Below are positions 41,841-56,412 of a DNA stretch of 64,000 nucleotides, in pieces (position 1 is the first letter of the stretch; each line of letters starts with the position of its first letter). A program made the translations under genes and the position numbers. The notes beneath the pieces were generated by a model. The model saw only the letters and a list, made by a program, of their open reading frames with translations. It did no database searches and was not told the origin of the DNA. Source of the DNA: Desulforegula conservatrix Mb1Pa (lineage in GTDB: Bacteria; Desulfobacterota; Desulfobacteria; Desulfobacterales; Desulforegulaceae); the NCBI RefSeq assembly GCF_000426225.1, contig NZ_AUEY01000005.1, forward strand, positions 62,001 to 126,000. Reading direction: 5' to 3'.

Positions 41841-41883
41841 AAAAGTTTTTGCGGAGCTTTTTTCAAAAAGCGACCGTTCGAGG
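41841..41883. repeat. GCGGAGCTTTTTTCAAAAAG repeat, family 3
   Basis: AAAAGTTTTTGCGGAGC followed by TTTTTTCAAAAAGCGACC. Related copies lie at 45931 (inverted), 46770 and 52680. Confidence 0.85.
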
Positions 41884-45828: not shown

Positions 45829-45930
45829 TGATCTAAAGTGCATGCCTCCGGGGAGTCAATTTACCCCTTATAAGCCAAAGTTAGACAGGAATTATAAGGG
45901 TATTTAATGACACCGTTTACAAGGATAACT

Positions 45931-45970
45931 CCGGCGGGTCGCTTTTTGAAAAAAGCTCCGCAAAAACTTA
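45931..45970. repeat. Family 3 repeat, inverted copy
   Basis: GGCGGGTCGCTTTTTGAAAA then AAGCTCCGCAAAAACTTA, the reverse complement of the unit at 46770 and 52680. It lies just beyond the kdpC stop. Confidence 0.85.
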
Positions 45971-46053
45971 ATGATTTTTGTCGGTTGGCAAGAACACTGA
46001 ATAGAATTGGTTCCCACGCAAAACATGAAAATTGGTTGTGCGCAAGTTGGTTC

Positions 46054-46632
46054 CTATGCCTTTCCAAATTTTTTGTCGAGCGCCATATTCAGGCGCAGAA
46101 CATTCACCCTCGGCTCGCCGAAAATAAATAAATCCCTGCCTTCAGTAGTGTTTTCAATAATCTTTTTAATCATTTCAGGATCTGCGTTTCTGGATTTTGC
46201 TATTCTTGGAATCTGCCACATTGCAGCTTCGGTCGAAATATGCGGATCAAGCCCGCTTGCAGAAGCCATAACAAGTTCCACAGGCACAGGGCCTTTTGCG
46301 TCCGGGTTTTCTTTGATAAGACGTTCAGTATCTGTTTTTATCCTTTCCCTTAGTTTCTGTGAAGAAGGTCCGAGATTCGATCCACCCGAACTTGAAGCAT
46401 CATAACCGTTTCCGGCAGCTGATGGTCTTGGCTGGAAATAGGAAGGCTTTGAAAATGCTTGTGCAATCAGTTTTGATCCGACAGTCTCGCCCTTTTCATT
46501 TTTAATCATGCTGCCGTTTGCCTTGTCAGGAAAGATAACCTGAGCAATTCCTGTGACAGCCAAAGGATATATTATCCCGGTAAGTATGAGGGTTACAATG
46601 GCCACCCTTAATGCGATGATTATATTTTTCAT
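46054..46632 (-). CDS. kdpC: Potassium-transporting ATPase subunit C
   Basis: A 192-aa KdpC with one N-terminal transmembrane helix (ALRVAIVTLILTGIIYPLAV) and a periplasmic domain with QPRPSAAGNGYDASSSGGSN and PHISTEAA. It stabilises the KdpFABC complex. The ATG at 46632, after AAAGGA with an 8-base spacing, is preferred; the open frame upstream runs into an inserted repeat. The gap of 195 bases to kdpB is large for this operon and is filled by two repeat units. Confidence 0.95.
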   Translation of the reverse strand: MKNIIIALRVAIVTLILTGIIYPLAVTGIAQVIFPDKANGSMIKNEKGETVGSKLIAQAFSKPSYFQPRPSAAGNGYDASSSGGSNLGPSSQKLRERIKTDTERLIKENPDAKGPVPVELVMASASGLDPHISTEAAMWQIPRIAKSRNADPEMIKKIIENTTEGRDLFIFGEPRVNVLRLNMALDKKFGKA

Positions 46633-46769: not shown

Positions 46770-46814
46770 GAAGTTTTTGCGGAGCTTTTTACAAAAAGCG
46801 ACCCGCCGGAGGCA
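46770..46814. repeat. Family 3 repeat in the kdpB-kdpC gap
   Basis: AAGTTTTTGCGGAGC, TTTTTACAAAAAGCG and ACCCGCCGGAGGC in series, as at 52680-52724. It lies within 15 bases of the kdpB stop. Confidence 0.87.
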
Positions 46815-46827
46815 CTTTGCCTCCTCA

Positions 46828-48873
46828 TCATATCAGCCCTGCCACCTGAAGCATCATGTCAATCAGCTTTATTCCGACAAAAGGCGCTATAACTCCGCCA
46901 AGGCCATAAATCAGAAGAGAACGCCTGAGAAGAGCTGAAGCACCTATGGGTCTGTATTTTACGCCGCGCAATGACAGCGGAATCAGCAGTATAATAATGA
47001 TTGCATTGAATATTACGGCGGACAGAATAGCGCTCTGGGGCGAGGCAAGGCGCATGATGTTGAGAGGCGCAATCTGGGGGAGTGCCGAAACAAACAGAGC
47101 CGGAAGAATCGCAAAATACTTGGCTATATCATTTGCGATTGAAAAAGTGGTGAGCGAGCCTCTTGTCATGAGGAGCTGTTTTCCAACCTCGACCACTTCA
47201 AGAAGCTTTGTGGGGTTGGAATCAAGGTCTATCATGTTTCCAGCTTCCTTGGCAGCCTGGGTCCCTGTGTTCATGGCAACCCCGACATCAGCCTGGGCAA
47301 GGGCAGGGGCGTCGTTTGTTCCGTCTCCTGTCATTGCGACAAGCTTGCCTTTTGCCTGTTCTTCCTTGATGAACCTCATTTTGTCTTCCGGGGTGGCTTC
47401 AGCAAGAAAATCGTCAACTCCTGCTTCCTTTGCTATACATGCGGCTGTTCTTTTGTTGTCTCCTGTTATCATGACAGTCCTGATTCCCATGGCCCGGAAA
47501 CGCTCGAACCTGTCCTTTATGCCTTCCTTGACCACGTCCTTGAGATGGATTATGCCGAGAATCCTTGCTCCGTCTGCGACAGCCAGCGGAGTTCCTCCGT
47601 TGTCAGCGATCAGGTTGGTTATATCATGTATTTCCTGGGGTATTTCTCCTCCAAGTTTTGTTACATATACGCAGATGGCGTCAACAGCTCCTTTTCTTAT
47701 TTCCCTGCCGTCTATGTCGCATCCGCTCATGCGGGTATGGGCTGAAAAAGGAATGAAATGAGCATCATGGGATATAAGATCCCTGCCCCTGAGATGGAAT
47801 TCCTCTTTAACCAGAACAACAATTGATCTGCCTTCAGGTGTTTCATCAGCAAGGCTCGAAAGCTGGGCAGCGTCCGCAAGCTCATTTATGTCAATTCCCG
47901 GAGTCGGAATCAGGTCTGTAGCCAGGCGGTTTCCGAGGGTTATGGTTCCTGTCTTGTCAAGAAGAAGGGTGTCCACATCTCCTGCTGCTTCCACTGCGCG
48001 TCCGCTCATGGCAATAACATTTTTACGGATCAGGCGATCCATGCCAGCAATGCCAATCGCGGAAAGAAGCCCGCCGATTGTTGTGGGAATGAGACAGACC
48101 AGAAGGGCGATCATGACTGTTGCAGAAAGATGAATGCCTGAATACGCGGCCATTGGCACAAGACTTACGCATACAATCAGAAAGACGATGGTAAGCCCGA
48201 CAAGAAGAATATGAAGAGCAAGCTCGTTAGGCGTTTTCTGGCGGGAAGTGCCTTCCACAAGGGATATCATCCTGTCTAAAAAAGAGCCTCCGGGATCCGC
48301 GCCTATTTTAATGACAATCCGGTCAGAAAGAACCTTTGTGCCTCCTGTTACTGCGGATCTGTCGCCTCCTGATTCACGGATTACAGGTGCTGATTCGCCT
48401 GTTATTGCGGATTCATCGACCGAGGCTATTCCCTCGATAACCTCGCCGTCTCCGGGTATCATGTCGCCAGCCTCGCACACCACCATGTCTCCCTTTCTGA
48501 GAGTCGAGGATGCAACTGATTCTTCTTTCCCGGAAACCAGTATGCGGGCTTTTATATCCTGACGGAGCTTTCGAAGGGATGCGGCCTGGGCCTTGCCCCT
48601 TCCTTCTGCCACAGCTTCCGCAAAATTGGCAAACAGAAGGGTAAACCAGAGCCATGCTGTTATGCTTCCAGTAAACCATAACGGAGCGGAATCAGCGTCA
48701 GGAGCCACAATATCCCTCAGAAATGCTGCTGTTGTGAGTATGCTGCCGATCTCAACGACAAACATCACCGGATTTTTGATGACATGCACGGGGCTAAGTT
48801 TGCGAACGCTGTCAATGACAGCCTGCATGAGAATATCTTTATTAAAAAGAGAAACTGTTTTTGTATCAGACAT
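46828..48873 (-). CDS. kdpB: Potassium-transporting P-type ATPase subunit B
   Basis: A 681-aa P-type ATPase that energises K+ uptake through KdpA. The phosphorylation motif is [14 protein letters not shown] (Asp ~307), the actuator motif is [11 protein letters not shown] (~153-163), the nucleotide-binding KGAVDAI and hinge motif [17 protein letters not shown] are present, and the membrane helices are complete. It starts 12 bases after the kdpA stop. Length matches the usual ~680 aa. Confidence 0.97.
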
Positions 48874-48885
48874 TTTTTAACCTCA

Positions 48886-50607
48886 TCAAAAAGTTGTGCC
48901 GGTTACGGCCGCGAAATGCTCCACAATCGGCCCCAGAGTAAGTGCGGGGAAAAAAGTCAAAGCTCCGACTATTATGATGACAGATAGAAGCAGGACAAGG
49001 AACATTCCTCCGTCAGTATGGAAAGTGCCTGGGCCAGCTGGAACCGTCTTTTTAGCAGCCATTGAACCTGCGATGGCAAGGACAGGTATGATCATGAAGA
49101 AACGGCCAAACAGCATGGACAGGCCGAGGGTTATATTATACCAGTCTGTGTTGGCGTTAAGTCCTGCAAAGGCTGACCCGTTGTTTCCTGCTGCGCTGGT
49201 GAATGCGTACAGGATTTCTGAAAGTCCGTGGGGCCCGCTGTTGTTCAGGGACGAAACTCCGTAGGGCGCAACTGCCCCCCAGGCCGTGAATCCGAGTATT
49301 ATAATCGGGAATATGAGCACATAGAGCATCACGAACTTCATCTCGTTAGCTTCTATTTTTTTTCCAAGGTATTCTGGAGTGCGTCCAACCATGAGCCCTG
49401 CTATGAATACTGTCAGGATAACGAACATAAGCATTCCGTAAAGCCCTGCCCCGACTCCGCCAAATATTACCTCTCCAAGCTGGATATTCAGCATAGGGAC
49501 AAGGCCGCCTATTGGGTTAAAGCTGTCATGCATGGAATTGACAGCACCGCAGGACGCGTCTGTTGTTACTGTCGCAAAAAGGGAAGATCCTGTTATCCCG
49601 AATCTTGTTTCCTTGCCTTCCATATTGCCCGACTGCACACCCATATTGATTCCTGCAACAGCGGCATTCGGATGGGATTCCGCCCAGTATGTTGTTGCTA
49701 CTCCGGCAGTAAACAGAATTGCCATTGCAGCCCAGATAATCCATCCGTCCTTTTGGCTTTTGGCCATTCGGCCATAAGTGTATGTCAAAGCCGAAGGAAT
49801 CGCAAAAATGAGTATCATTTCAAACATATTGGAAAGCGGTGTCGGATTTTCAAAAGGATGAGCGCTGTTTGCATTGAAAAAACCGCCTCCGTTTGTGCCA
49901 AGTTCCTTGATAGCTTCCTGAGAAGCCACAGGCCCCATTGCAATGATCTGGCTCGATCCTTCAATGGTCATGATTTCATGGTAGGCGCTGAAATTCTGGA
50001 TAACTCCCTGGGAGACAAGAAAAATTGCGGCTATAAAGCTGATGGGCAGAAGCACGTAAATCGTACCCCTGATGAGATCTGCCCAGAAATTGCCGATTGT
50101 GGACGGCATTCCAGGTTTTATCTTTCTGGTGAAACCGCGGGCAATTGCAAGGGCAACGCCGATTCCTGCCGCAGCAGATGTGAAGTTGTGCCACGCGAGC
50201 CCTGCCATCTGCGAGAAATAGCTCATGGTCGTCTCGCCTGAATATGCCTGCCAGTTGGTATTAGTCGTAAAGCTGATGGAGGTGTTCATGGCGAGCCATG
50301 CAGGCACTGGCCCGAATTTCTGGGGGTTCAGAGGTAAAAGATTCTGAAACCTCAGGATCGCGTAAGTGATCAGCATGCTGATCACGCTGAACATAATTAG
50401 AGAGGCGGCGTATTCTTTCCAGCCCTGTTCCTCATCAGGATTAATTCCGCACACCTTGAAAAAGAATCTTTCCAAAGGGCCGAAAATTCGCGGCAGAGGT
50501 CTTTTGGGCCCTTCGAACACACTAAAAAGGTATGTTCCAAGCGGCTTGGTCAAGGCAAATACGACTGCCAAAAATATTAAAATCTGCAACCATCCGTTAA
50601 GTGTCAT
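48886..50607 (-). CDS. kdpA: Potassium-transporting ATPase subunit A
   Basis: A 573-aa channel-like subunit of the superfamily of K+ transporters. Selectivity-filter-type segments are visible, for example SFTTNTNWQAYSGE (~111-124), LGTNGGGFFNANSAHPFENP (~232-251), VTTDASCGAVNSMHDSFNP and SAAGNNGSAFAGL. GGAG lies 6 bases before the ATG on the minus strand. It provides the K+ path for the KdpB pump. Preceded by two very short membrane-peptide genes. Confidence 0.97.
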   Translation of the reverse strand: MTLNGWLQILIFLAVVFALTKPLGTYLFSVFEGPKRPLPRIFGPLERFFFKVCGINPDEEQGWKEYAASLIMFSVISMLITYAILRFQNLLPLNPQKFGPVPAWLAMNTSISFTTNTNWQAYSGETTMSYFSQMAGLAWHNFTSAAAGIGVALAIARGFTRKIKPGMPSTIGNFWADLIRGTIYVLLPISFIAAIFLVSQGVIQNFSAYHEIMTIEGSSQIIAMGPVASQEAIKELGTNGGGFFNANSAHPFENPTPLSNMFEMILIFAIPSALTYTYGRMAKSQKDGWIIWAAMAILFTAGVATTYWAESHPNAAVAGINMGVQSGNMEGKETRFGITGSSLFATVTTDASCGAVNSMHDSFNPIGGLVPMLNIQLGEVIFGGVGAGLYGMLMFVILTVFIAGLMVGRTPEYLGKKIEANEMKFVMLYVLIFPIIILGFTAWGAVAPYGVSSLNNSGPHGLSEILYAFTSAAGNNGSAFAGLNANTDWYNITLGLSMLFGRFFMIIPVLAIAGSMAAKKTVPAGPGTFHTDGGMFLVLLLSVIIIVGALTFFPALTLGPIVEHFAAVTGTTF

Positions 50608-50622
50608 TTTGAACTCCGGGCA

Positions 50623-50712
50623 TTAAAATTTTTCAGGTCTTATCAGGCTGTAAAAGAGATAGATCATCAAAAATACAGCGATGGCGGCACTAATAAGGTA
50701 TTCGGGATTCAT
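50623..50712 (-). CDS. kdpF: KdpF-like 29-aa membrane peptide
   Basis: The minus strand encodes a 29-residue peptide, MNPEYLISAAIAV then FLMIYLFYSLIRPEKF, with one transmembrane helix and the C-terminal pattern found in KdpF (helix, then a Tyr-x-x-Leu-Ile region and a final Phe). KdpF stabilises the Kdp complex in Escherichia coli, where it is also 29 aa. AAGGA lies 10 bases upstream of its ATG, overlapping the end of the preceding small gene. It ends 15 bases before kdpA. Confidence 0.85.
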   Translation of the reverse strand: MNPEYLISAAIAVFLMIYLFYSLIRPEKF

Positions 50713-50873: not shown

Positions 50874-50889
50874 AGCATATTGCATGCCA
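50874..50889 (-). promoter_or_regulatory. Sigma-54 promoter of the kdp operon
   Basis: On the minus strand TGGCATGCAATATGCT matches TGGCAC-N5-TTGCW with GG and GC separated by exactly 10 bases. It is about 70 bases upstream of the first small gene. It overlaps a palindrome GAGCATAT/ATATGCTC at 50873-50896. The transcription start is expected near 50863. Confidence 0.82.
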
Positions 50890-50915
50890 TATGCTCGTGT
50901 TTATATGAATAGTAT

Positions 50916-50928: not shown

Positions 50929-50982
50929 TGTGTGTATGGTGTGCGCATGCTTTGTTTTTTGCATATAGCCATAAAAAGAGTA

Positions 50983-50996
50983 TTGCAAAATGCAAG
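50983..50996 (-). promoter_or_regulatory. Palindromic activator site (UAS candidate) for kdp
   Basis: On the minus strand the sequence CTTGCATTTTGCAA, with TTGCA and TGCAA as half-sites, is flanked by AGAG and CTCT that also pair. The centre is about 110 bases upstream of the promoter -12 element. The identical 14-mer recurs at 52491-52504. Confidence 0.65.
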
Positions 50997-51139: not shown

Positions 51140-52468
51140 ATGAATATACTTATAATAGACGATGAACCAAATATCAGAAAAACCCTGTCCATGTGCCTTG
51201 AGTCTTCGGGGCACAGGACAAAGACAGTGAGTTGTTCAAAAGATGCCATTTCAGAGCTGGAGTCAGAGGTTTTTGATCTTGCTTTTGTGGATCTGAGGCT
51301 TGGAACTGAAAGCGGGCTCGATCTTATTCCTTCTATTGTATCTGTTTCTCCTTGGACAAAAATGGTTGTGATAACCGCGTTTGCTTCTGTCGAGACTGCT
51401 GTTGAGGCCATGAAGCTTGGCGCTTCGGATTATCTTGCAAAGCCTTTCAAGCCTGATCAGGTTCTTTTAATAGCAGAGCGAGTCGGTAAAATACGCCGCA
51501 TGGAGCAGAAAATCATCAATCTTCAGAATGATATTGAACGGCTTCATCCTTCGGTTTCATATTCATCATCAAATCCATCAATGCAGAAGGCTTTGGATCT
51601 GGCAGCCGAGGTTGCCGGGTCAGAAGCTGTTGTCATGCTGAGGGGGCCTAGCGGAACCGGTAAAACTGTTCTTGCAAAAGCCATTCATTCATGGAGCAAA
51701 AGAGCTGACAAGCCGCTTGCAGTAATATCATGCCCGTCTCTTTCGGCAGAGCTTCTTGAAAGCGAGCTTTTCGGTCATGTCAAGGGAGCATTCACAGGAG
51801 CGCTCCGGGATAATCCAGGCAGAATAGCTTCCTGCGAAGGAGGGACTCTTTTTCTTGACGAGATTGGAGACCTTCCTCTCCATGTTCAGCCCAAACTGCT
51901 TAGATTTTTACAGGACAGGGAATATGAACGTGTTGGCGATCATAAAACCAGAAAGGCAGACGTAAGAATAATAGCGGCAACAAACGCTGATCTTGAAAAA
52001 GCTGTCAGGGACGGCAGGTTCAGGGAAGATCTGTATTACCGCCTGAATGTGATTCAGATTGATCTTCCGCCTCTTTCAGAAAGACCTTCGGATGTTGAAA
52101 AAATAGCGTCTGACATGCTTTCCTTTTTCGGAGGCCAGAATCATAAAATGTTCAAGGGCTTTTCAGAAGAAGCCATGAAAGCCATGAAAGAATATTTATG
52201 GCCTGGAAACATCCGCGAACTTAGAAATGTGGTGGAAAGGGCGGCCATACTCTGCAAATCTGACACAGTCGATTTATGCCATCTTCCTGATTTTATTCAT
52301 GTCAGAAGTTCTGCCATGCGCATCGGTGATCCGGTTTCCATTTCAGAAATAGAAGAACAGCATATAAGGCGTGTTCTTGCTTCAACAAAAGTCATGCAGG
52401 AAGCCTCCGGGATTCTTGGAATAGATCAGGCAACTCTCTGGAGGAAGCGAAAGCAGTACGGGATATAG
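51140..52468 (+). CDS. Sigma-54-dependent response regulator (NtrC family)
   Basis: A 442-aa protein with three domains. Receiver (residues 1-120) with the acidic pair in IIDDEPN and phospho-acceptor Asp51 in [13 protein letters not shown]. The AAA+ domain (~140-370) has Walker [15 protein letters not shown], the sigma-54-contacting GAFTGA loop in [13 protein letters not shown], and Walker [12 protein letters not shown]. The C-terminus is a Fis-type helix-turn-helix ([18 protein letters not shown]). A TTG at 51122 is in frame, but the ATG at 51140 fits the receiver start. It is divergent from the kdp operon and the probable activator of it. Confidence 0.94.
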
Positions 52469-52490: not shown

Positions 52491-52504
52491 CTTGCATTTT
52501 GCAA
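52491..52504 (+). promoter_or_regulatory. Second copy of the 14-bp UAS palindrome
   Basis: CTTGCATTTTGCAA, identical to the kdp UAS in reverse orientation, followed by GCCTCT where the kdp copy has TACTCT. It is about 360 bases upstream of the sigma-54-type promoter at 52850. Confidence 0.65.
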
Positions 52505-52593
52505 GCCTCTTTTCTGCAATTCTTGTTTTTTTTAAGGCTCTGTTCCAGTTAAATGTTTAAATATGTAGAACAAATTGTTTTTAGTTTATTTTC

Positions 52594-52623
52594 TTGGGGA
52601 TCTTTTTGAAAAAAGATCCCCAA
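52594..52623. repeat. GGGGATC hairpin
   Basis: TTGGGGATCTTTTTG and AAAAAAGATCCCCAA form a near-perfect 30-base inverted repeat. It has no following T-run and is followed by an AAAACTTTATGATTTTT segment also found near 45961. It is related to the family 3 elements. Confidence 0.75.
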
Positions 52624-52679
52624 ACCCCTCAAAAACTTTATGATTTTTTATGATAACAGCCCATTATTTATATCATTGA

Positions 52680-52724
52680 AAGTTTTTGCGGAGCTTTTTT
52701 CAAAAAGCGACCCGCCGGAGGCAG
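52680..52724. repeat. Family 3 repeat upstream of the kinase gene
   Basis: AAGTTTTTGCGGAGC, TTTTTTCAAAAAGCGACC, CGCCGGAGGCAGC; same as 46770 with small changes. Confidence 0.87.
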
Positions 52725-52849
52725 CTTTTTATATTTCAATATCAAATGGTTATTACATATATCCTTCTCCACACTTAAGGGGAACAGGCCTTTTAAGGCA
52801 ACAACCTTATTATTATTTATCCATTCGTTAATCTATTCAGATTTAAATC

Positions 52850-52865
52850 TGGCACAAATCCTGCT
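52850..52865 (+). promoter_or_regulatory. Sigma-54-type promoter of the histidine kinase gene
   Basis: TGGCACAAATCCTGCT, with GG and GC exactly 10 bases apart and a perfect TGGCAC element. A start near 52876 would leave a 14-base leader in front of the ATG at 52890, just enough for AAGGAG. Confidence 0.78.
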
Positions 52866-52889: not shown

Positions 52890-54764
52890 ATGATCGGAAT
52901 ACGCCAGAAGCTTGCTCTCGGATTTTTAAGTATTCTTGCAGTCAGTGCCGTAATTGGAGTCATGACAATGAGGCAGATGGATGATCTGGGAAAAGCCATA
53001 GATGTGATCCTCAGGGAAAATTACCGTAGCGTAATTGCCTGCCAGGACATGAAGGAAGCCCTTGAACGCATTGACAGCGCAGCTCTTATCTCTCTTACAG
53101 GAAATGAGCCAGTAAATATTGATGAACAAATCCTGAAATTCGATTCCGCACTTGAAACAGAGCTTGGAAATCTGACAATTCAGGGCGAGGCTGAAAAGGC
53201 TAACAAAATAAGAGCTTTATTCGGAGAATACCTGCCAATACTCAAAATGGTTACAGATACTTCCATTACTATAGATTCCCGCCGTGAAATATATTTCAAT
53301 AAGCTGTATCCATTGTTTTCAGGGATTAAAAACAATGCCCAGGATATTCTCGAAATAAACCAGAAAAACATGACAGATGCCAACGATGCTGCAAGGAGAA
53401 AGGCTTCTTCCGCACGCAGGCATCTGCTGATTGGTATTTTGTCTTCGGCAATTGTGGCGGTTTTATTCATATATCTTATCCAAAGATGGATTCTGGTTCC
53501 TTTAAGAAGGCTTATCGAATCAGCAGAAGAAATAAGTAAAGGAAGACTTGAGCTTGTAATAGAAACTGACTCAAGGGATGAGATGGGGCAATTGTCCGAA
53601 GCTTTTAATTCGATGGCAGAAGGTCTCAGGAAATTTGTCAGAGCGGAACGAATGGGGCTGACACGCGGGAGACGGGCAACAGAAGAGATTTTTAAGATTC
53701 TTCCTGTTGCAATAGCCGTGGCTGATCAAAATGGGATAATCGAGCTTGCCACAGAAGTTGCTGAAAAACAATTCGGGCTTTGTTCAGGTAAGGCTGTTGT
53801 GGATTCAGGTCTGGAATGGCTCAGGGAGATGGTTTCTTCTGTGCAGGCAAATGGTGAATCGGCTGCACTTGAGCGGGATGGGGGCCTGATCCAGCTTTTT
53901 ATTGATAACAGGGAGCATTTTTTCAGACCAGCTGTTATTCCGGTTCGATCTGATTACGCAGATGGAGAACTTTCCGGGGCAGCCATAGTAATTGAAGATG
54001 TAACTGCAATAAGGGAGCAGCAGGAATTGAAGAAAGGAGTGATTTCAACTGTTACCCATCAGCTTAAAACTCCGCTAACATCCCTTCGCATGTCTGTTCA
54101 TCTTCTTCTGGATGAAAAAATAGGGCATATTAATAAAAAACAGACCGAACTTCTCATTGCCGCACGTGACGAGAGCGAACGGCTGGCAAGTATTCTGGAT
54201 GACCTTTTGGATATGGACAGAATTGAATCAGGTCGGGAATTTCTGAATATCAAACCTGTGGACGCTAACATGCTTATCATGGACAGCATCGACTGCTTTG
54301 CCGCGGAGGCAAAGGACAGAGGGTTGAATCTGATCAGCATTCTTCCTGATGATCTTCCTGATGTAATGGCCGATTCAGGCATGGTCGCCCATGTTTTGGC
54401 CAATCTTATTTCAAACACTTTCAAATTCACAGATCCGGGTGGAACAGTAACGATAGGCTCTGAGAGATCCGGTAATATGGTGTGCTTTTCAATCAGGGAT
54501 ACTGGCAAGGGTATTAGTGAAGAGCATATTGGCAGGATTTTTGACAGGTTCTACAGAGTTCCGGGGCAAAATGGCCATTCCGGTGCAGGACTCGGACTTG
54601 CAATCGTAAAGCAGATTGTTGAGGCTCATGGGGGAACCGTAAGCGCTGAGAGCAAGCCTGGCAAAGGATCTGAATTCAGGTTCTCTCTGCCTGTATCTGA
54701 TGGCTGCCACTATTCTTGTGAAAATGAAAATCATGAAAATAAGGATGGGCTGAACCATGACTGA
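52890..54764 (+). CDS. Membrane histidine kinase (HAMP-PAS) linked to Kdp regulation
   Basis: A 624-aa sensor kinase. Transmembrane helix 1 is at residues ~8-27, a periplasmic helical domain spans ~30-175, and helix 2 is at ~178-200. A HAMP domain (~200-255) is followed by a PAS-like domain (~263-375). HisKA has His390 in STVTHQLKTPLTSLR, and the HATPase domain has NLISNTFKFTD and GAGLGLAIVKQIVEAHGG. The gene overlaps the KdpD-like gene by 8 bases and is preceded by a sigma-54-type promoter. It is the likely kinase for the activator at 51140. Confidence 0.92.
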   Translation: MIGIRQKLALGFLSILAVSAVIGVMTMRQMDDLGKAIDVILRENYRSVIACQDMKEALERIDSAALISLTGNEPVNIDEQILKFDSALETELGNLTIQGEAEKANKIRALFGEYLPILKMVTDTSITIDSRREIYFNKLYPLFSGIKNNAQDILEINQKNMTDANDAARRKASSARRHLLIGILSSAIVAVLFIYLIQRWILVPLRRLIESAEEISKGRLELVIETDSRDEMGQLSEAFNSMAEGLRKFVRAERMGLTRGRRATEEIFKILPVAIAVADQNGIIELATEVAEKQFGLCSGKAVVDSGLEWLREMVSSVQANGESAALERDGGLIQLFIDNREHFFRPAVIPVRSDYADGELSGAAIVIEDVTAIREQQELKKGVISTVTHQLKTPLTSLRMSVHLLLDEKIGHINKKQTELLIAARDESERLASILDDLLDMDRIESGREFLNIKPVDANMLIMDSIDCFAAEAKDRGLNLISILPDDLPDVMADSGMVAHVLANLISNTFKFTDPGGTVTIGSERSGNMVCFSIRDTGKGISEEHIGRIFDRFYRVPGQNGHSGAGLGLAIVKQIVEAHGGTVSAESKPGKGSEFRFSLPVSDGCHYSCENENHENKDGLNHD

Positions 54765-56412
54765 AAAACGAGCTGACAGCTTTCTCAGGCTTATAAAAAA
54801 ATCCCGGAGAGGTAGGCTCAAAATTTATCTTGGGTATTGCGCAGGAGTCGGCAAAACATATCAGATGCTGCTTGAAGCCCACAGGATGATGGCTGACGGT
54901 ATTGATGTATCTGTCGGAATAGTCGAAACCCATGGACGAAAGGAAACAGCGGCTCTCATTGAAGGCCTGAAACTGATCCCGCCCCGGATAACCACATACA
55001 GAGGAATAGAGCTTCATGAGCTTGATATTGATGCGATTCTTTCAGCAAAGCCCTCGGTTGTTCTTGTTGACGAGCTTGCCCATACCAATGTGCCAGGAAG
55101 CAGAAATTCAAAAAGATATCAGGATGTCGAAGAAATTCTTGCGGCAGGTATTCATGTTATTTCCACTCTTAATGTCCAGCACCTTGAAAGTCTTTACGAA
55201 ACTGTCGAAAGAGCCACAGGTGTAAAAGTCAAGGAAAGGATTCCTGATCGCGTGGTGGCTGAGGCAGATGAGGTCGTAAATGTGGATCTGACAACCCATG
55301 ATCTGAGGAGGCGTCTGAAAGAAGGGAAAATTTACGGTCATGAAAGGATAACGACTGCACTCGATAATTTTTTCAGACCGGCCAATCTTGAGCAACTCAG
55401 GGAGATTTCTTTGCGTGAAATGGCCGCACATATCGATTCCAAACGAAGAAATCCCCTTGAAGAGCAAGTATCATCAAGCCCTGATCAGGTAATGGTCTGT
55501 CTAAGCTCCAGAGGCCCTAACAGTGAGGCTCTTCTTCGTTATGCATCCCGTCTCGCCGGCAGGCTTAACAGAAACTGGTACGCAATTTACGTTCAGACTG
55601 CTTCAGAGCGGCCCACAGTAATAGATTCCGAAACCCAGCGTCTTTTGTCAAATGCCCTTGGCCTTGCCCAACAGCTTGGCGCGACTGTTTTCACTTACAG
55701 AGGAGACGACATTGTTAAGACAATGCTTCAATTTGCCACTGAATATCGGGTTGGGCACATTGTGATAGGAACTTCGGGCAAAAAGTCTGGTCTTTGGCAG
55801 AGACTGAAAGGAGAGCAGGGGATAGTGGAACGCCTGATTTCCGAAAGCAGGGGAATCACAGTGGTTGTTCTTGATACAAGGCAGATTTATAAGCCAGAAA
55901 AAGCATCGATTGACCATGAAAGAATCCAAGCAGCTAATCCGAGGACTGAAATGCAGTGGCAGAGCCGGATTAGGTCGTTGATTTCAGCAGAGAGAACAAT
56001 TATCTGGAATTCAGGCATGAACAAGGATGCAGCCATGAAAGAGCTTGTGTCGCTTTGCTGTTTAAGCTGCCCTGGCCTTTCTGATGAAAAGGCGTGGAGT
56101 TCGGTTATGCTTAGGGAACTCCAGGGTTCCACATTTTTTGGTGAGGATATAGCTATCCCGCACGCAAGGGTGGACGGCCTTGATCAGCCTGTGATTGCTC
56201 TGGGACTTTCGGCGCACGGCATATTCGAGCATGAAACAGGGCGCAGCACAAGAATCATGTTTCTTCTTCTTTCTCCGGGAAATGACCAGGAAGTTCATCT
56301 AAAATTATTGAGTGAAATAAGTAAGATGAGCAGAGACGATCAGTTCAGAAAAAAGCTTCTGGCTATGGAGTCAAGAAATGGAATTCTGGCCCTTTTTAAT
56401 GAAATCACTTAA
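54757..56412 (+). CDS. KdpD sensor domain-Usp-PTS EIIA fusion, no kinase
   Basis: A 551-aa soluble protein. Residues ~20-230 are the KdpD N-terminal sensor domain with Walker-type GYCAGVGKTYQML and VLVDELAHTNVPGS. Residues ~243-375 are a universal-stress-protein domain (VMVCLSSRGPNSEALLRYAS, HIVIGTSGKKSGLW). Residues ~408-551 are a PTS EIIA-2 (fructose/mannitol/Ntr type) domain with active-site His469 in FGEDIAIPHARVDG. The four transmembrane helices and the kinase core of classical KdpD are absent. It overlaps the kinase gene by 8 bases, so they probably act together. Fusions of this type occur in related bacteria; I know of no assigned function. Confidence 0.9.
   Translation: MTEKRADSFLRLIKKSRRGRLKIYLGYCAGVGKTYQMLLEAHRMMADGIDVSVGIVETHGRKETAALIEGLKLIPPRITTYRGIELHELDIDAILSAKPSVVLVDELAHTNVPGSRNSKRYQDVEEILAAGIHVISTLNVQHLESLYETVERATGVKVKERIPDRVVAEADEVVNVDLTTHDLRRRLKEGKIYGHERITTALDNFFRPANLEQLREISLREMAAHIDSKRRNPLEEQVSSSPDQVMVCLSSRGPNSEALLRYASRLAGRLNRNWYAIYVQTASERPTVIDSETQRLLSNALGLAQQLGATVFTYRGDDIVKTMLQFATEYRVGHIVIGTSGKKSGLWQRLKGEQGIVERLISESRGITVVVLDTRQIYKPEKASIDHERIQAANPRTEMQWQSRIRSLISAERTIIWNSGMNKDAAMKELVSLCCLSCPGLSDEKAWSSVMLRELQGSTFFGEDIAIPHARVDGLDQPVIALGLSAHGIFEHETGRSTRIMFLLLSPGNDQEVHLKLLSEISKMSRDDQFRKKLLAMESRNGILALFNEIT

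Follow-up and report, generated by a model that had tools for sequence, protein, structure and literature searches.

Sequence evidence for a sigma-54-type promoter and activator site ahead of a KdpD-type sensor operon, and for a predicted sensor-side feedback in potassium uptake

The locus described here places the gene of an NtrC-type response regulator between a kdpFABC operon and two sensory genes, which raises the question of whether this activator would govern only the potassium pump or also the proteins that inform it. A preliminary description of the window (the whole stretch of 64,000 nt analysed here, part of a 4.47 Mb genome of 4,466,430 bases that was searched as well) had proposed that the activator controls both the pump and its own sensory partners in a closed circuit. 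As can be seen in Table 1, kdpFABC is read leftward, while the regulator, the kinase and the KdpD-domain/EIIA genes are read rightward, and the last two share 8 bases and probably form one transcription unit. The short hydrophobic ORF that precedes kdpF had no match in a family search. RpoN is encoded in the genome (PF04552 match, 204 bits). The fusion of a KdpD sensor domain to a PTS EIIA_2 domain (54757-56412) hints at a possible link between the phosphorylation state of the PTS and potassium sensing.

Table 1. Features of the kdp, regulator and sensor region, in window positions.
Feature	Position	Strand	Remarks
kdpC	46054..46632	-	PF02669
kdpB	46828..48873	-	as query matches the KdpB position of relatives' kdp operons, 53-75% identity
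kdpA	48886..50607	-	PF03814
kdpF	50623..50712	-	TIGR02115
Hydrophobic ORF, 29 aa	50716..50805	-	MNDLLAITMTMIFFGMCVMYLSGLEKLRK; precedes kdpF, first in kdp operon
Sigma-54-type promoter of kdpFABC	50874..50890	-	ATGGCATGCAATATGCT; 10/12, exact spacing; 105 bp from UAS1, 5' end to 5' end
UAS1, kdp side	50974..50996	-	TTGCA-N3-TGCAA palindrome 50983-50995 in 23-bp arm common to UAS2
NtrC-type response regulator	51140..52468	+	receiver, sigma-54 interaction domain, Fis-type HTH; GAFTGA present
UAS2, kinase side	52491..52513	+	13-mer TTGCATTTTGCAA at 52492-52504; 23 nt past regulator stop
MITE-like dispersed repeat, 255 bp	52536..52790	.	ends GGCTCTGTTCC / GGAACAGGCC; between UAS2 and its promoter
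Sigma-54-type promoter of kinase operon	52849..52865	+	CTGGCACAAATCCTGCT; 10/12, exact spacing
Sensor histidine kinase	52890..54764	+	HAMP, HisKA, HATPase_c
KdpD sensor domain + PTS EIIA_2 domain	54757..56412	+	without kinase domain

The 14-mer CTTGCATTTTGCAA, already noticed in the preliminary description, is indeed present in opposite orientations at 50983-50996 (minus strand) and 52491-52504 (plus strand), with no other exact copy in the window, and CTCT stands two bases past each copy (TA-CTCT and GC-CTCT). The match continues beyond the 14-mer and forms an inverted repeat of 23 bp with 91% identity (50974-50996 / 52491-52513). In the whole genome the inner 13-mer occurs exactly twice, against a naive expectation of about 0.13, and both copies lie beside the NtrC-type regulator gene; the reversed 13-mer, taken as a control, has no copy at all. 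The many unrelated copies lacking sigma-54 promoters that the preliminary description had named as a possible refutation are absent, the 13-mer being confined to UAS1 and UAS2, each of which has a GG-N10-GC promoter. A chance origin of the pair was rejected on this rarity and on the shuffle controls on the relatives' gaps given below. The looser TTGCA-N3-TGCAA motif has four further copies in the genome; no sigma-54-like site lies within 170 bp of any of them, and they were consequently dropped as regulon targets.

Promoters were recognised by GG-N10-GC within TGGCAC-N5-TTGCW and scored out of 12. The interval from kdpA to the kinase gene contains exactly two sites of at least 9/12, one per UAS and each correctly oriented. 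The kinase-side site had been put forward as TGGCACAAATCCTGCT at 52850-52865, and both its GG-N10-GC spacing and the 24 bases between its end and the kinase ATG (52890) were confirmed. The same scan revealed no recognisable sigma-54 promoter belonging to the regulator gene.

The regulator served as query to collect relatives within its class and phylum and in a species-level genome collection, and its orthologues (~53-71% identity) provided 65 non-identical regulator-kinase gaps, the window excluded. If one mismatch is allowed, the palindrome is found 3' of the regulator gene in 59 of the 65 gaps, a sigma-54 site scoring 10 or more in 54, and the palindrome followed by the promoter 40-130 bp further in 46, compared with 0.5, 0.9 and 0.005 in mononucleotide shuffles, although these counts are somewhat inflated by the common ancestry of the relatives. 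A dinucleotide-shuffle control on 51 gaps, this time including the window, gave 46 versus 1.15, and 37 versus 0.0 for the pair. The median distance between UAS and promoter in the relatives is 98 bp, with 29 nt from the promoter to the kinase gene, and a second, degenerate palindrome appears 31-33 bp further in 53/66 gaps; the corresponding sites of the window, at 31 bp, match badly, with 3 and 4 mismatches. Among weaker regulator paralogues, only 1/27 holds the palindrome-promoter pair. The motif does vary, since the relatives closest by regulator (67-71%) often show a palindrome with one mismatch or no recognisable one. The pair is found in records under about ten phylum-level labels, some of which may be wrong because many of these records are metagenome bins; their titles include Desulfobacterota-type, Deferribacteraceae, Hydrogenedentota, Acidobacteriota, Planctomycetota, Fibrobacteres, Latescibacterota, Handelsmanbacteria, Fermentibacteria and Victivallis. 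Several Chlorobiaceae records have the palindrome but failed the strict pair test, and in the Chlorobiaceae loci L061 and L062 an APC-family permease (PF13520), which we take to resemble KimA-type potassium importers, is encoded between the UAS and the kinase gene, just past the regulator. A regulator-linked palindrome at a conserved distance before a sigma-54 promoter, as found here, is the arrangement of an NtrC-type enhancer.

According to this sequence pattern, the kinase/KdpD-like operon very probably has its upstream activating site at 52491-52513 and its -24/-12 promoter at 52849-52865, in a dual-promoter circuit that the regulator would drive. The phosphorylated regulator (51140-52468) would bind the palindromes of UAS1 and UAS2 and, by DNA looping, would enable the sigma-54 RNA polymerase to open both promoters. 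Low potassium, the presumed signal, would raise the pump and its sensors together, with kdpFABC lying here on the other side of the regulator gene and holding its own UAS-promoter pair, and the result would be a positive feedback on the sensors. The proposal of a closed circuit can thus be retained for the sensor side, where the conserved UAS and sigma-54 promoter support it, but not for the activator, whose own gene lacks a sigma-54 promoter and would stay outside; the predicted loop therefore runs via the kinase and the KdpD-like sensor. This suggests that selection keeps the sensor, and not the activator, inside the loop.

The spacing on the kinase side is unusual, 357 bp versus the relatives' median of 98. 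The 360 bases reported in the preliminary description are correct as an observed distance but do not represent the original spacing, as the MITE-like repeat lies in between. This element is flanked by TTTTAA at 52530-52535 and 52791-52796, an imperfect target duplication, and belongs to a family with at least 47 matches in the genome (255-280 bp, ends GGCTCTGTTCC, AT-rich 8-bp duplications that are exact in L147 and L151 and imperfect in other copies). It shows the properties by which MITEs are recognised: it is short and multi-copy, it has terminal inverted repeats and a target duplication, and it encodes no transposase. An ISL3-type transposase (PF01610), suggested by its ends as the driver, was not found in the genome. 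Family fragments are also seen in the window at 41842-41875, 45929-45979 and 46771-46818. Once the 255-bp repeat and the 6-bp duplication are subtracted from the 357 bp, 96 bp are left, within the relatives' range, so the odd spacing is attributed to the insertion of the repeat, which would have entered the kinase-side spacer later and extended it from about 96 bp.

Such an insertion could have reduced or abolished the activity of the kinase-side promoter. In the extreme case the site would be a relic: UAS2 would be uncoupled, the activator would now control the pump alone, and expression of the kinase would have another source, such as the transcript of the regulator gene. We regard this as unlikely. 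The exact 13-mer of UAS2 and a promoter whose 10/12 is no worse than the relatives' scores have persisted beside a repeat that is 8-14% diverged from its closest copies, and decay may therefore have had some time, whereas the long spacing, the multi-copy nature of the inserted repeat and the degenerate second tandem site are what a relic would be expected to show. Activators of the NtrC type generally act at a distance, and the inverted repeats of the element might hinder read-through from the regulator gene. Furthermore, in the relative L071 the UAS and the promoter stay about 107 bp apart despite a gap enlarged to 728 bp. The intact UAS2 and promoter favour a stretched pair that is still working. 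The locus offers a natural example in which the spacer between a bacterial enhancer and its promoter was lengthened by a mobile element, and a working pair would make it a natural test of how much distance bacterial enhancers tolerate.

Another reading, to which we give very little credence, takes the palindrome 3' of the regulator gene for an intrinsic terminator that resembles UAS1 only incidentally. Its position 23 nt past the stop codon, a possible 6-bp RNA stem (-6.7 kcal/mol) and the CCTCTTTTC that follows would fit a terminator, but five or more T in the next 8 nt appear after only 4/60 orthologous palindromes, so that stem and T run are not kept together, while the distance to the sigma-54 promoter and the 32-bp tandem repeat are conserved. 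The motif is found as well between divergent promoters where no gene ends, and at UAS1. A fold of 61 nt does not outperform shuffles (z -0.49), and one of 31 nt does (z -2.24), as is expected of any palindrome; the terminator was rejected on these fold statistics and on the rarity of T runs in orthologues. It is just as improbable that UAS1 and UAS2 work as a pair, with the regulator bound 1.5 kb apart looping out its own gene and UAS2 mainly supporting kdpFABC or repressing the regulator, although near-identical, oppositely oriented sites do flank the regulator gene: this layout was seen in the window only, and relatives have the kinase-side site and none upstream of the regulator.

With respect to the protein that would occupy the enhancer, the recognition helix of the regulator (16 residues) is near-invariant in orthologues, where it is conserved along with the motif, and is absent from ordinary paralogues; a few relatives of 40-46% with a variant helix also have the palindrome. 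None of the genome's other regulators was found to hold the same helix, and the nearest one differs. LuxO of Vibrio is likewise an activator of the NtrC type, and its ChIP-seq sites in V. cholerae, ttgcaaaatgcaa (qrr1) and ttgcattttgcaa (qrr3) (PMC10328515), are 13-mers identical to that of the window. In the qrr operators, two sites that act cooperatively lie about 100 bp ahead of the sigma-54 site (PMC11407668), a geometry that matches the relatives of the window locus. By analogy, these sites may be considered independent, albeit indirect, support for binding of the regulator to the palindrome. LuxO differs in controlling quorum-sensing small RNAs, while the window regulator is linked to potassium genes, and the key helix residues of LuxO, Ser423, Ile425, Tyr426, Arg427 and Lys428, correspond only partially to A-T-L-W-R-K. 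The regulator was rejected as a LuxO orthologue, as it scores 332 bits with the LuxO model against a cut-off of 800.

Sigma-54 control of kdp is already known from DVU3334, a response regulator that acts on kdp in Desulfovibrio vulgaris Hildenborough and whose binding motif has been reported as conserved in S. fumaroxidans and D. vulgaris Miyazaki (PMC3333781, PMC4641369). Both systems have an NtrC-type regulator, sigma-54 control of kdpFABC, which is predicted for the window, and a split KdpD (in the DVU3334 system, a KdpD/Usp protein and a separate kinase), and the window regulator combines a receiver, a sigma-54 AAA+ domain and a Fis HTH and is encoded beside kdp genes and a split KdpD. However, one target operon is listed for DVU3334, whereas in the window the kinase/KdpD genes and the pump have separate UAS-promoter pairs flanking the regulator gene. 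In E. coli, kdpFABC is likewise under two-component control with a KdpD-type sensor. There, KdpE belongs to the OmpR type and depends on sigma-70, and KdpD is a single protein, in contrast to the NtrC-type regulator and split KdpD of the window. New in the present locus are a kinase promoter that stands apart from that of the pump and is deeply conserved, an operator in common with LuxO, and a spacer that contains a mobile element; none of these was found described in the papers searched.

The strongest case for selection on the feedback comes from the position of the kinase across operon layouts, since the pattern recurs. In most Kdp-linked relatives (layout A), the regulator, UAS-promoter, kinase and kdpABC, often with a KdpD-like gene, follow one another in a single direction, and a single UAS-promoter pair 3' of the regulator serves kinase and pump. 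In L160, L161 and L165 (layout B), kdpFABC is opposed, and palindromes with two outward sigma-54 promoters lie between kdpA and the kinase. The window (layout C), with both pairs flanking the regulator, is unique in the relatives sampled. Other relatives have TrkH/TrkA-type potassium genes nearby in place of kdp (layout D), and in some of 47-49%, such as L204 and L207, the TTGCA-N3-TGCAA motif and promoter precede kdpABC-KdpD-kinase and the regulator is convergent (layout E). Judging from these arrangements, the kinase is in, or probably in, the UAS-controlled unit wherever the pair can be placed; at the family edge there are exceptions such as L093 (54%), where the kinase gene lies 31 nt past the regulator gene, which itself has the palindrome and promoter on its upstream side. 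The separate pairs for pump and kinase in the window and three relatives therefore indicate that the kinase feedback outlived operon splitting.

In its widest form, the proposal is of an ancient, cross-phylum sigma-54 regulon for potassium uptake, with a LuxO-like operator and an inducible kinase but not activator, kept through rearrangements and, in the window, with the MITE-stretched pair still working; for this whole we see about an even chance. One operator, one recognition helix and a fixed geometry would yield a testable prediction of the potassium genes that respond, namely Kdp and, in relatives, transporters of the TrkH/TrkA and APC types encoded in the neighbourhood of this regulator.

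Two further arrangements were observed among the relatives. L158 has two adjacent regulator paralogues, one after TrkH/TrkA-type genes and the other before kdp, an order that looks like the insertion of a kdp cassette into the other system. In Tahibacter and relatives (L096, L097, L099, L104 and L114), a variant palindrome near GTGCAGANTGCAA lies about 65-75 bp before the regulator gene, and the helix is a different one, STLYRKRK, which may reflect operator drift.
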